Positions 35,025 through 38,986 of a DNA stretch of 64,000 nt are shown one piece after another. Below the pieces are notes generated by a model. It saw only the letters and a list, made by a program, of their open reading frames with translations. It was not told the origin of the DNA and searched no databases. Each line of letters begins with the position of its first letter. Within the stretch, counting starts at the first letter, position 1. A program made the translations under genes and the position numbers. The stretch is from an uncultured Ruminococcus sp. (GTDB taxonomy: Bacteria; Bacillota; Clostridia; Oscillospirales; Ruminococcaceae): assembly GCA_944388405.1 (NCBI GenBank), contig CALXIQ010000007.1, positions 1 to 64,000 on the forward strand. Reading direction: 5' to 3'.

Positions 35025-35855
35025 TTAGCTGTTCGCCTTTTTGTGCAGCGACCTGAATTCAGCCGGCGACAGCATTTCATGGCGTTTGAACACTGCGCAG
35101 AAATAGCTGCAATCGTTATATCCCACCAGAGCCGCAATTTCGTTGATGTTCTTTTTGTCCTCAAGCAGCAGAAGCTTTGCCTGCTGTATTCGCTTTCTGG
35201 CAAGATACTCGAAAGGACGCATATTCAGACATTCCTTAAACAGCCGGCATAGATACTGGGGCGAAAGATCTATAAGCTCAGACAGCTCCGAAAGGGTAAG
35301 ATTCTGCTGATAGTTTTTTTCGATATAATCGATAACAGGCTGAAGCTGGTTAAGCTTTGCGCCGTCCTTGGAGCCGTTCTGAAGATTAACTACTCTGTTA
35401 AGCTCTATGAAAAACTGATACAGGTAAGCCGAGCACTGATGACCTCGGTAATAGTAATTGGTTTTCATAAGATAAAGTATCTTCTTGAAAATCGCATCCA
35501 GCGAGCTGATGTCGTGAATGTGAAAAACCTTGGCTTTATCAAGCTTTATATAGTCAAGCACCGCCTTTACCTCCCTGCCCTCAAAGGTAAGCCAATGAGT
35601 TTCCCATATATCCTCCACGGGATAATACTCGTGGGGCACATCGGGCGGAAGATAAATAGCGTCCCCTGCGGTTATCTGATATTCCTGACCCTCAAGCTTA
35701 AGCACGCCGCTACCCCTGATGCAATAGATTATCTGATGATTGGGATAGCCGTCCTCACGGATAAAATGAAACTCCCTGTCCCTTGCTCCCACTCCCAGCA
35801 CGTACATAGGAAGGTTGACTTCATCGCCTAACACGGTGTAATAATAATCGGTCAT
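35025..35855 (-). CDS. AraC-family transcriptional regulator with cupin sensor
   Basis: 276 residues. The N-terminal half is a cupin-like sugar-sensing domain (IIYCIRGSGVLKLEGQEYQI and AGDAIYLPPDVPHEYYPVED). The C-terminal half has two helix-turn-helix motifs: LTLSELSELIDLSPQYLCRL and INEIAALVGYNDCSYFCAVF, with the FKRHEMLSPAEFR end signature. It is typical of carbohydrate-responsive activators. The nearest possible targets are yibE/surface protein downstream or the divergent SGNH operon; the true target is not known. Confidence 0.93.
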   Translation of the reverse strand: MTDYYYTVLGDEVNLPMYVLGVGARDREFHFIREDGYPNHQIIYCIRGSGVLKLEGQEYQITAGDAIYLPPDVPHEYYPVEDIWETHWLTFEGREVKAVLDYIKLDKAKVFHIHDISSLDAIFKKILYLMKTNYYYRGHQCSAYLYQFFIELNRVVNLQNGSKDGAKLNQLQPVIDYIEKNYQQNLTLSELSELIDLSPQYLCRLFKECLNMRPFEYLARKRIQQAKLLLLEDKKNINEIAALVGYNDCSYFCAVFKRHEMLSPAEFRSLHKKANS

Positions 35856-35970: not shown

Positions 35971-35999
35971 TTGTACAAAGTGTAAATATATGATACAAT
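35971..35999 (+). promoter_or_regulatory. Promoter of SGNH-NYN-yfcE operon
   Basis: -35 TTGTAC (35971-35976), 17-nt spacer, -10 TACAAT (35994-35999) on the plus strand, about 120 nt before the SGNH start. It is divergent from the AraC-type promoter, with only 25 nt between the two -35 boxes, so one bound regulator could affect both. Confidence 0.7.
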
Positions 36000-36119: not shown

Positions 36120-37139
36120 ATGCTAAAAAAATTTTTCTGTATTGCCGCAGCGCTGTGGGCGTTTCAGTTTTGTGAAATACCTTGCTTCGGGGAAAACGTA
36201 TTTCAGGAAATAGAAACCGATGTTCCGCCCCATATACTTTTTCTCGGCGACTCCATAGCTTCGGGATACGGGCTTGAGGGCTATGATAACGGTCGTGAAA
36301 ACTGCCGCTCATATGCAAATATCCTTTCTGAGGAATATGAAGCCCTGCTTCCCGAGGAATGTGGATTTTCAATGACCAATCTGGCAGTCGACGGACAGAA
36401 CTCCTCTGACCTTGCCGAAAGAGTTGTAAGCGGAGAATACGACGATTATCTGAAATCCGCCGACTGTATCGTTATCTCAATAGGCGGAAACGATATGCTT
36501 GACGTTATGTTCGATATAATGAGATCGTCGGGAATAGTAGGTGATTCTTCAAGTTTTGACTTTACGGCGCTTATACAGGGGCTTGCTGATATGTCCCGGA
36601 GCATAGACCTAAACCTTGAAAGCTTTGATGAAAACATTGCCGAAACTGCGGCATATATAAAATCCATCAGCCCGGCTGAAGTTATCGTTCAGACTCTTTA
36701 CAATCCCTTTGAAAGCTTCAACGTCCCTGCCATAAGCGAGCTTTCTGCCCAAAAAATCGACAGGCTCAATGAAATGATAGTTGCTCATTCCTCCGACGCC
36801 GATGGCGGATATACGGTGTGTGACGTAGCATCCGCTTTTGAAGGTAAAGCAAACGAACTGACAAAAATCTCACAGTTTGACGTTCACCCAAACGTGGAGG
36901 GCCACGAAATCATCGCCGACTGCGTAGACAATTCGGTAAGAAGTCACAGGTACAGCTACCTAAAGGCTGCGGAAGCTTCCGTGCCCACAGGCGTTGATAA
37001 CTCTTCCGATACAGCGGGATTGATTATTGTCATGATTTCCGCCGCTGCCGCTTTGATTGTAGGAATAATACTCGGAAGAAAGCTGCGAAAACTGAGCCGA
37101 AATGATGCAGACCCAACAGATGCCGAAAATGACGACTGA
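36120..37139 (+). CDS. Membrane-anchored SGNH/GDSL hydrolase
   Basis: 339 residues. Signal peptide (about 1-23), then a GDSL/SGNH esterase fold: block I ILFLGDSIASGYG (catalytic Ser), block III VISIGGNDML (oxyanion Gly and Asn), and block V FDVHPNVEGHEI (catalytic Asp-His). A C-terminal membrane segment (about 299-317, LIIVMISAAAALIVGIILG) with a basic tail anchors it outside the cell. Likely substrates are acyl or acetyl esters on lipids or cell-wall glycans. AAGGTGAAG precedes the ATG. It is the first gene of a three-gene plus-strand operon. Confidence 0.88.
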   Translation: MLKKFFCIAAALWAFQFCEIPCFGENVFQEIETDVPPHILFLGDSIASGYGLEGYDNGRENCRSYANILSEEYEALLPEECGFSMTNLAVDGQNSSDLAERVVSGEYDDYLKSADCIVISIGGNDMLDVMFDIMRSSGIVGDSSSFDFTALIQGLADMSRSIDLNLESFDENIAETAAYIKSISPAEVIVQTLYNPFESFNVPAISELSAQKIDRLNEMIVAHSSDADGGYTVCDVASAFEGKANELTKISQFDVHPNVEGHEIIADCVDNSVRSHRYSYLKAAEASVPTGVDNSSDTAGLIIVMISAAAALIVGIILGRKLRKLSRNDADPTDAENDD

Positions 37140-37155
37140 CTTATATTTTGTGAAA

Positions 37156-37195
37156 CGGAGGGAAACCATGGCACAAATGTGCCCATGGTAAATTT
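37156..37195 (+). promoter_or_regulatory. Displaced ribosome binding site with hairpin before the NYN gene
   Basis: The only good Shine-Dalgarno (CGGAGGG, 37156-37162) lies 33 nt before the NYN start. Between them, 37166-37188 form a stem (CCAT plus GGCACA with TGTGCC plus ATGG, one bulged C). Folding this stem would leave an effective spacing of about 10 nt. The same stretch also holds a 7-codon open frame. Confidence 0.6.
37168..37191 (+). CDS. Seven-codon upstream open reading frame (MAQMCPW)
   Basis: ATG at 37168 is ideally placed 5 nt after GGAGGG and is followed by six sense codons and TAA. The NYN gene ATG begins 4 nt after this stop, close enough for re-initiation by the same ribosome. 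No homologue can be recognised for so short a peptide; the alternative is that the hairpin at the same place sets the spacing for the main gene. Confidence 0.45.
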   Translation: MAQMCPW

Positions 37196-38404
37196 ATGAA
37201 CGCTTATCTTATAGATTTTGAAAATGTAAAATCAAAAGGCCTTACAGGCATAGAACACTTAGGCGAAAACGACAGGGTAATAATATTCTACAGCGAAAAT
37301 TCCGACACCATAAGCTTTGACATGCACATGAAGGTTATGGCGACCCCAGCCTCTGTGGAATATCTTAAAGTCAGGGTGGGCGGAAAAAACGCCCTTGACT
37401 TTCAGCTATGCTCAATGATGGGCTTTATCGCCGCCAAGGAAATATACAGATTTATTTTTATCATCAGTAATGACAAGGGCTTTGACAAGCTTCACGATTT
37501 CTGGAACGTTTGCAATGTAAACAACACCTCCTGCACCGTGTTCAGAAGTCCTACCATAAAATCCGCAATGCTCAGCAAGGGACTGCTGCGTCACGGTTCG
37601 GTTAAACAGTCGGTTGACGAGCAGACTGACGAGCATGATATCACCGAGGAACAGCCGGAGGAACAGGTTATCGAGCCGACCGAAGCCACAGCAAACGAAA
37701 GCTTTAACCAGCCGACTCCACAGTCTGAAACCGACATTTATTCCGAGGATTCAGCCGACAACTCTGCGGCTGACGATTCCGACCTTGGAGAAACCGGCGA
37801 AAACGATGAAACCGGGCATGAGCCTGAAATGGTTATTACCAAAATTGCGGCCGACGACCGTAAACATAATACCGAGCGGGTTTTGGCGCAGATAAAAAAC
37901 GCCCTGCTTGGAAGCTTCGACTTTGAAATGAGCGACGTGGAAGAAATAATGGAATGTATCGAAAATTCAGAAACAAAAGAGGATTTTCACAATTCCCTCG
38001 CAAAAGTGTTTAAGCAGAACGCTACCGAGCTTTATAAGATACTGCGTCCAAAATATCTCAGGCTTAAAGCTATGCTCAGAAACGAGGAGGATGGCGAACA
38101 AGCCCTTGCCGAAGCAGGCGAGGAAAGCGTATCAGATGCTGTCTCGGCAAACACTGAGGTTTCAGACAGCGACGGCAAAGACGACAACGCTCTTATGAAC
38201 GAAATAAGCCGCCTGCTGAAAAGTCACTGTTCTCAGGAGGAGATCGAAACGGTATGCAGGCTTATAAATGAAACCGACACAAGGCAAAGGCTTTATCTCT
38301 CCATTATAAAGAAATATAAAAAGGACAGAGGCTGCGAAATATATAAATACATCAAGCCCGAATACATGAATCTTATCAAGCTTAAAACGGAGGTTACGGT
38401 ATGA
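37196..38404 (+). CDS. NYN/PIN-like ribonuclease domain protein with duplicated C-terminal module
   Basis: 402 residues. The N-terminal part (about 1-135) is a NYN/PIN fold, with acidic residues in YLIDFENV (D7, E9), GKNALDFQL (D68) and FIISNDKGFDKL (D93, D97) suited to metal-dependent RNA cleavage. An acidic, low-complexity linker (about 140-215, rich in E, D, S and T) follows. Two related helical modules end the protein: about 226-293 and 331-396, each finishing with E-(L/I)-Y-K-x-(L/I)-(R/K)-P-x-Y. I do not recognise this module. The last 4 bases overlap the start of the phosphodiesterase gene. Nuclease activity is inferred from the fold. Confidence 0.8.
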   Translation: MNAYLIDFENVKSKGLTGIEHLGENDRVIIFYSENSDTISFDMHMKVMATPASVEYLKVRVGGKNALDFQLCSMMGFIAAKEIYRFIFIISNDKGFDKLHDFWNVCNVNNTSCTVFRSPTIKSAMLSKGLLRHGSVKQSVDEQTDEHDITEEQPEEQVIEPTEATANESFNQPTPQSETDIYSEDSADNSAADDSDLGETGENDETGHEPEMVITKIAADDRKHNTERVLAQIKNALLGSFDFEMSDVEEIMECIENSETKEDFHNSLAKVFKQNATELYKILRPKYLRLKAMLRNEEDGEQALAEAGEESVSDAVSANTEVSDSDGKDDNALMNEISRLLKSHCSQEEIETVCRLINETDTRQRLYLSIIKKYKKDRGCEIYKYIKPEYMNLIKLKTEVTV

Positions 38405-38916
38405 AACTTATGATAGCGTCGGATATTCACGGCTCGGCATATTATTGCCGCAAGCTGCTGGACGCTTTTGACGAGCACCATGCAGACAGGCTTGTGCTGC
38501 TGGGGGATATTCTTTACCATGGACCAAGGAATCCCCTCCCCCAAGGGCACGACCCCAAGGCGGTAGCCGCTATGCTAAACGATGTTAAGGATAGTCTGCT
38601 TTGCGTAAGAGGCAACTGCGACTGCGAGGTTGACCAGATGGTGCTGGAATTTCCCGTAATGGCGGAATACGCGTGGATATGCGCAGACGGCGTCACGATA
38701 TTTGCCACCCACGGACACAAATTTAATCCCGACAATCCGCCGCCGCTGAAAAAAGGCGACGTTCTGGCAAACGGTCACACTCATATCCCCGTTATAAAAG
38801 ACATGGGAGACTATACTTATATAAACTGCGGCTCTGTAGCTCTCCCAAAGGAAAATTCGCCCCACAGCTATATAATCATGGAAAACGGAACGTTTACCCT
38901 CCATGAACTGAAATAA
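38401..38916 (+). CDS. yfcE: YfcE/MJ0936-family metallophosphoesterase
   Basis: 171 residues. Metal-binding motifs of the calcineurin-like fold are complete: ASDIHGSAYYCRKLL, LVLLGDILYHGPRN, VRGNCDCEVD, THGH and GHTHIPV. Family members hydrolyse phosphodiesters such as bis-p-nitrophenyl phosphate and 2',3'-cyclic nucleotides in vitro. The ATG overlaps the NYN gene stop (ATGA), so the two are translationally coupled. A strong bidirectional terminator follows. The coupling suggests a joint role in nucleic acid or nucleotide processing, which is inference. Confidence 0.9.
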   Translation: MKLMIASDIHGSAYYCRKLLDAFDEHHADRLVLLGDILYHGPRNPLPQGHDPKAVAAMLNDVKDSLLCVRGNCDCEVDQMVLEFPVMAEYAWICADGVTIFATHGHKFNPDNPPPLKKGDVLANGHTHIPVIKDMGDYTYINCGSVALPKENSPHSYIIMENGTFTLHELK

Positions 38917-38936: not shown

Positions 38937-38986
38937 AAAAAAACAGGCTGTCCCCCGAAATCAATCGGTAGGGCAGCCTGTTTTTT
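38937..38986. terminator. Bidirectional terminator between yfcE and yfhO
   Basis: Long stem AAAACAGGCTG/CAGCCTGTTTT, with an inner CCC/GGG, flanked by A6 and T6 runs. The genes on either side converge here. Confidence 0.9.

Follow-up and report, generated by a model that had tools for sequence, protein, structure and literature searches.

Among described systems, one of the closest to the operon considered here is the CRISPR-associated NYN ribonuclease locus of Bacteroides fragilis. The operon lies on the plus strand at positions 36,120 to 38,916 of a 64,000-nucleotide stretch of contig CALXIQ010000007.1 from an uncultured Ruminococcus sp. ("the window" below denotes that entire stretch), and encodes an SGNH hydrolase, a NYN protein of the PIN7 family and a YfcE-type phosphodiesterase. 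In the available portions of its description, the B. fragilis locus includes the phosphodiesterase NrN and CorA, and its NYN enzyme cleaves RNA, with the D13A form being inactive (PMC11346440). The two loci have in common a NYN protein (in the window, of predicted NYN fold), a nearby phosphodiesterase gene and, going by motif order, the same three aspartates. However, NrN is a DHH-type enzyme that degrades SAM-AMP in a CRISPR locus (PMC11346440, as far as available), whereas the partner in the window is of the YfcE type, is coupled to the NYN gene via an ATGA overlap and is unaccompanied by a signal synthase. The N-terminal domain of the PIN7 protein would, by its modelled fold, also resemble two NYN ribonucleases, MARF1 and Rae1/YacP of Bacillus subtilis; unlike them, PIN7 constitutes its own Pfam family and bears C-terminal modules that match neither LOTUS nor RRM. 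The third point of reference is Escherichia coli YfcE (PRK09453, structure 1su1), which resembles its window counterpart over residues 1-166, including the GNCD motif; the comparison is of the proteins only, and the window version is set in an operon behind a NYN gene. The accessible text of PMC4320098 describes a protein of near 183 aa with a GNCD motif and no known physiological substrate, which hydrolyses neither cAMP nor cGMP, seems to act on linear phosphodiesters and may need a cellular binding partner.

A literature search, mostly without subscription papers, returned nothing on PF18475, on YfcE with a PIN domain or on PIN7 in bacteria, and gave no system of this make-up, in agreement with the initial annotation of the operon. 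The constituent parts belong to known families, the C-terminal domain is undescribed, and we know of no described SGNH-NYN-YfcE operon.

All three plus-strand genes were recovered at their annotated coordinates on the basis of open reading frames (ORFs) and family matches. The second (37196..38404) encodes a 402 aa protein matching PF18475 (PIN7) at 91.5 bits (cut-off 34), and its NYN/PIN domain (37196..37570), recognized by alignment and, less clearly, by fold comparison, keeps the acidic triad D7, D68 and D93, which bears out its annotation as a NYN/PIN-type protein. In an alignment of 22 rows D7 and D93 are invariant and D68 is present in at least 90%; the triad motifs are likewise found in 43/43 PIN7 proteins linked to YfcE (see below). 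An AlphaFold model of the domain, generated from 8 sequences and with pLDDT blocks ranging from 64 to 92, has as its closest solved folds the MARF1 NYN domain (Z 9.9, rmsd 2.9, 109 aligned residues; and 9.7) but, close behind, a hydrogenase chain (9.3), followed by VPA0982 (2qip; Z 8.4) and Rae1 (Z 7.6), while a sequence search of the PDB with the PIN profile gave chance-like matches only (interleukin-18, best E 0.012). We predict this domain to be a metal-dependent ribonuclease that would cut RNA internally. The third gene (38401..38916, 171 aa) matches NF006988 (PRK09453, the E. coli YfcE type) at 233.3 bits against a cut-off of 117 as well as PF12850, aligns with 1su1 at E 9e-49 and contains an RGNCD motif, so that its annotation as a YfcE-type phosphodiesterase holds. 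The metal motifs GD-x-x-YHG, GN[CS][DE] and HGH are each present in 43/43 linked YfcE proteins, with SD[IL]HG in 42/43 and the exact GHTH in 34/43; judged from these sequences, the metal-binding apparatus of YfcE and the acidic triad of PIN7 are both intact. The PRK09453 YfcE proteins are phosphodiesterases of subclass IIIC, with Mn-dependent hydrolysis of bis-pNPP as a class trait. They are widespread, with NF006988 scoring over its cut-off in 93/245 genomes of the order.

The central observation is the linkage of these two genes. At 38401-38404 a single ATGA holds both the PIN7 stop and the YfcE start, exactly as first read, and the arrangement recurs in other genomes. With the PIN7 protein as query, 39 of 197 family genomes gave a match, and searches within genera found PIN7 in 12/16 genomes of g1, 12/13 of g36, 29/29 of g66 and 11/11 of g96. 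Among the 66 loci examined, one was from g103 and 65 from these four genera; one of the 65 (L235 of genome G477), on a truncated contig and for that reason devoid of a PIN domain, was dropped, leaving 64. This set does not include the divergent second copies of PIN7 in G035, G449 and G457, of which that of G035 (L064) is without YfcE. In 43/64 loci YfcE lies directly behind PIN7 and in the same orientation, these being distributed over all four genera (g1 9/12, g36 9/12, g66 18/28, g96 7/12), and two of the three unlinked loci of g36 stop at a contig edge within PIN7. Projected from the PIN7 stop, the YfcE start lies at −4 nt in 12 loci, −1 in 7, +1 in 12 and +3 to +13 in 5, and in the 7 linked loci of g96 at +8 to +44 nt. 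Gene order, tight spacing and conservation are hence matters of direct observation, and the adjacency, which the initial annotation had proposed to count across genomes, extends past this strain and its nearest kin, so that the condition named there as refuting joint work of the pair did not hold. The SGNH gene lies upstream of PIN7 in 12/12 loci of g1, 12/12 of g36, 18/28 of g66 and in the g103 locus, as opposed to 0/12 in g96.

The surroundings of the pair are far less constant. In comparisons among the 43 linked loci, where the presence of YfcE follows from how the loci were selected and the flanks are free to vary, and with antisense ORFs set aside, no gene outside the trio is common to g1 and g36 in 81/81 locus pairs or to g36 and g66 in 161/162. 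Between g1 and g66, the gene for an AraC-type regulator is common in 36/162 pairs, in the same divergent place (an AraC homologue is also present in g103), and another ORF in 32/162, with some of these ORFs resembling antisense frames of AraC. The flanks being mostly unshared across genera, it follows that the trio was retained amid changing neighbours. Further, phylogenetic trees place the linked proteins in more than one position. In the YfcE tree (68 rows; L075, L076 and L091 dropped as duplicates), linked versions occupy two places: they make up 36 of the 39 rows on one side of the tree, and a group from g96 (97/85) sits within the unlinked versions. The PIN tree (97 rows), which has few columns and long branches and from which pieces of <85 residues were dropped, unites the proteins of g1, g36 and g66 in one supported clade, with the linked g96 proteins apart from it. 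Unlinked lineages lie between g96 and the main clade in both trees, and the starred branches force at least 3 label changes in the YfcE tree and at least 6 in the PIN tree. Since g96 stands apart in both, the pair may have formed on two occasions; this would be the simplest reading of these trees, though one origin with many losses may instead account for them.

Several PIN7 proteins and YfcE genes were also encountered in other settings. Tandem PIN7 paralogues occur in G028, G139 and G135 (L043, L045, L052), with the second copy in L043 being without part of the active-site pattern. Relatives of PIN7 are found on conjugative plasmids in Enterobacterales and Acetobacter, as well as on a plasmid from Selenomonas (L318, L319, L320); the Selenomonas version bears the C-terminal module described next, and the Providencia and Acetobacter versions read have a different C-terminus. 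In G158, where YfcE is not beside PIN7, it lies directly behind a gene resembling folC.

The C-terminus of the PIN7 protein consists of a previously undescribed helical module, a repeat of 48 positions that follows a long acidic linker (median 94 residues and about −7 charges per 100, over 81 linkers). The window protein has two modules (37868..38071 and 38186..38398), both delineated by a purpose-built profile and alignment. With an iterated profile the module was detected in 87/97 PIN7 proteins, as a single copy in 30, two in 47, three in 9 and four in 1; separately, most complete PIN7 proteins of g36 were seen to have three or four modules with highly variable linkers (L033, L034, L198-L207). 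Modelled alone from six sequences, the second copy of the window protein is predicted with confidence to be a three-helix domain (mean pLDDT 93.7, pTM 0.81). The repeat is unmatched by any Pfam model, LOTUS and RRM included, a Foldseek search with its fold returned no hit at E ≤0.001, and its sequence gave only chance-like matches in the PDB (best E 1.4); the best VIA Z, 7.5 to the GH2 domain of GIPC1, falls in a range also reached by unrelated helical models. A PADLOC hit to HamA (16 bits) that covers a portion of module 1 together with its linker was taken as chance.

The distribution of the module bears on what it might do. In its own genome it is confined to the PIN7 protein, and across the family its profile matches 36/197 genomes; 26 of 29 module loci checked share a frame with a PIN domain, and of the three exceptions one (L302) is the module end of a long PIN7 gene in G143, L310 is merely a short frame, and L314 encodes another kind of protein. 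The latter, of about 350 aa, is encoded in G177 and again in G090 (L321 4305-5357; L322 2422-3465), with an RNTFLH motif in its N-terminal part and the module behind. We provisionally take this motif to be the RX4H mark of HEPN ribonucleases, and two genes near the G177 version, by their sequence features, are presumably McrB (an AAA+ ATPase) and McrC; Pfam and PADLOC gave no match for the module protein itself. Should the HEPN reading hold, RNA-cutting enzymes of two kinds would share the module, and this would argue for a role in aiming them. Modules on flexible acidic linkers could hold the PIN7 nuclease to RNA, to a ribonucleoprotein or to YfcE.

The conserved gene order suggests that the NYN nuclease and YfcE act together. 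We infer RNA as their substrate, joint action and a role of the module therein, and assign a probability of roughly 0.4 to the proposal that the last two genes are a conserved, coupled pair acting in one step of RNA processing or RNA decay. In this scheme the two proteins would be made together by coupled translation, the NYN domain would cut RNA internally once the helical modules had brought it to its target or to YfcE, and YfcE would then act on the linear phosphodiester that this cleavage had generated or uncovered. A bolder version, wherein PIN7, aimed by its tandem modules, would be the missing partner of YfcE in these bacteria and make the RNA ends or fragments on which YfcE naturally acts, the two would form an RNA-processing machine and the module would be a portable aiming domain, strikes us as unlikely.

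A number of observations weigh against joint action. Ten g66 loci keep PIN7 with neither SGNH nor YfcE beside it; these carry longer PIN7 proteins of 517-614 aa (L036, L216, L218, L219, L222, L224, L225, L227, L229, L231). YfcE is absent in the other samples: none of 31 PIN7 loci from other genera of the family has it (part of 41 examined, with up to about 7 kb per side and some contigs shorter), nor do any of 15 loci from 391 genomes of the class (1.5 kb flanks) or the 3 from other families of the order, such that among the loci examined linkage is confined to one bacterial family. No PIN7-YfcE fusion was found among four long YfcE frames in other genomes: their additional N-terminal sequence hit neither the PIN profile nor that of the module and looks like GC-rich DNA that happens to be free of stops. 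At the level of whole genomes (the family sample of 197, p values not corrected for kinship), a close YfcE is commoner where PIN7 is present, in favour of the pair (25/39 genomes versus 58/158 without PIN7, p 0.003), but with the four linked genera removed the association is weak (16/30 versus 58/158, p 0.10). Moreover, 14/39 genomes with PIN7 have no close YfcE and 58/158 without PIN7 have one; with the genes so often apart, there is no general dependence of either on the other, and PIN7 must serve some purpose in the absence of YfcE as well. The modules have a median net charge of +1, i.e., near neutral rather than basic, and thus give no argument for nucleic-acid binding, and the summary of PMC4320098 states that E. 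coli YfcE does not cleave DNA. The initial proposal that the pair works together accordingly survives as regards a linkage that reaches beyond the strain, across reshuffled flanks and into a separate clade, but is held back by its restriction to one family, the frequent separation of the genes and the lack of a fusion.

The main rival, almost as likely as the coupled pair, is co-regulation alone, i.e., that a common transcript and regulator serve the same condition while the proteins act on different substrates. The SGNH hydrolase (36120..37139; PF13472, 69 bits) has a signal-like start and a hydrophobic C-terminal helix, as read from its sequence, and is predicted to lie outside the membrane; it is probably not part of the reaction and merely co-regulated with the pair, perhaps via the divergent AraC-type regulator (35025..35855, minus strand; AraC_binding and HTH_18 in Pfam). 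A predicted extracellular member of the same operon, the retention of the AraC gene in part of the loci and the occurrence of every gene without the others all fit this explanation, which fares less well with the recurrence of the PIN7-YfcE pair in g96 without SGNH, its presence in separate clades and its very tight spacing in the main clade. Neutral hitch-hiking, in which an order fixed by descent or by joint transfer of a block is simply still unbroken, would account for linkage within one bacterial family and for the single supported clade of g1, g36 and g66 PIN7 proteins. We regard it as improbable, as the median PIN7 identity between genera is down to 35-46% and other genes within several kb are unshared in most genus pairs, and as the second clade, in g96, also has the pair.

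Two further explanations appear very improbable. PIN-fold toxins are common, and PIN7, with its patchy distribution (39/197 genomes of the family; 16/391 of the class over the cut-off, own genome included) and its presence on conjugative plasmids, might be the toxin of a toxin-antitoxin or defence cassette. However, there is no dedicated antitoxin of the type II kind; the partner is the 171-aa YfcE, a conserved enzyme that also occurs alone, in 58/158 PIN7-free genomes. PADLOC gave no match of weight, and the 30 PIN7 loci without YfcE have mixed neighbours with no defence theme. A defence island was considered and set aside: 59 of 151 neighbour proteins collected from PIN7 loci without YfcE hit 84 Pfam families, with no theme in evidence (25 of the 84 listed). 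There was no Cas protein among five neighbouring proteins scanned, though no search aimed at CRISPR was made. By the other explanation, YfcE would be the off-switch of PIN7, removing a nucleotide signal or modification in the way that NrN degrades SAM-AMP, and the co-location of a phosphodiesterase gene with a NYN nuclease in the B. fragilis CRISPR locus is in its favour (PMC11346440, available portions). Against this, the operon is without a signal synthase, NrN has another fold (DHH) according to the same portions, and, according to the accessible text of PMC4320098, neither cAMP nor cGMP is a substrate of E. coli YfcE. The last point also makes action on a cyclic nucleotide, which the initial annotation had allowed for alongside RNA, less likely.

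Of the single promoter and single terminator originally attributed to the operon, the terminator stands, as a strong intrinsic hairpin whose long stem runs into a T tract at about 38938..38986 (plus strand; −29.8 kcal/mol, z −8.7) and which a simple terminator scan did not list. A single promoter ahead of SGNH serving the operon is plausible: the candidate TGTACA-16-TACAAT (35972..35999, plus strand; 9/12 match), with a TG ahead of the second hexamer, lies in a stretch nearly identical in the sister species Ruminococcus sp. Marseille-P6503 (locus L031), which retains SGNH, PIN7 and YfcE. Yet sites of this class are at chance level (8 observed versus 8.7 expected). A GGAGG for YfcE sits within the final PIN7 codons, and the translation of PIN7 and YfcE would probably be coupled.

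The spacer between SGNH and PIN7 has features of its own (37157..37191, plus strand), namely a Shine-Dalgarno GGAGGG followed by a hairpin (37165-37189), with a 7-codon ORF at 37168-37191. The hairpin between this site and the PIN7 start is found in both the window (37157-37196) and the sister species (L031 5958-6001) and, once folded, would bring GGAGG and the start to normal spacing. The four differences between the two 24-nt hairpins amount to two complementary pairs (G-C to T-A and C-G to G-C). In most other relatives the PIN7 start is closely preceded by a site of the GAAAGGA type, and the hairpin insert is missing.

A conserved, coupled nuclease partner offers a direct way to look for the substrate of YfcE. 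If the pair does act together, the little-studied PIN7 family and its undescribed module would be placed in a pathway; and should the bolder version be true, a PIN7-YfcE machine would explain the orphan YfcE, and the module would be one used by different RNA-cutting enzymes.

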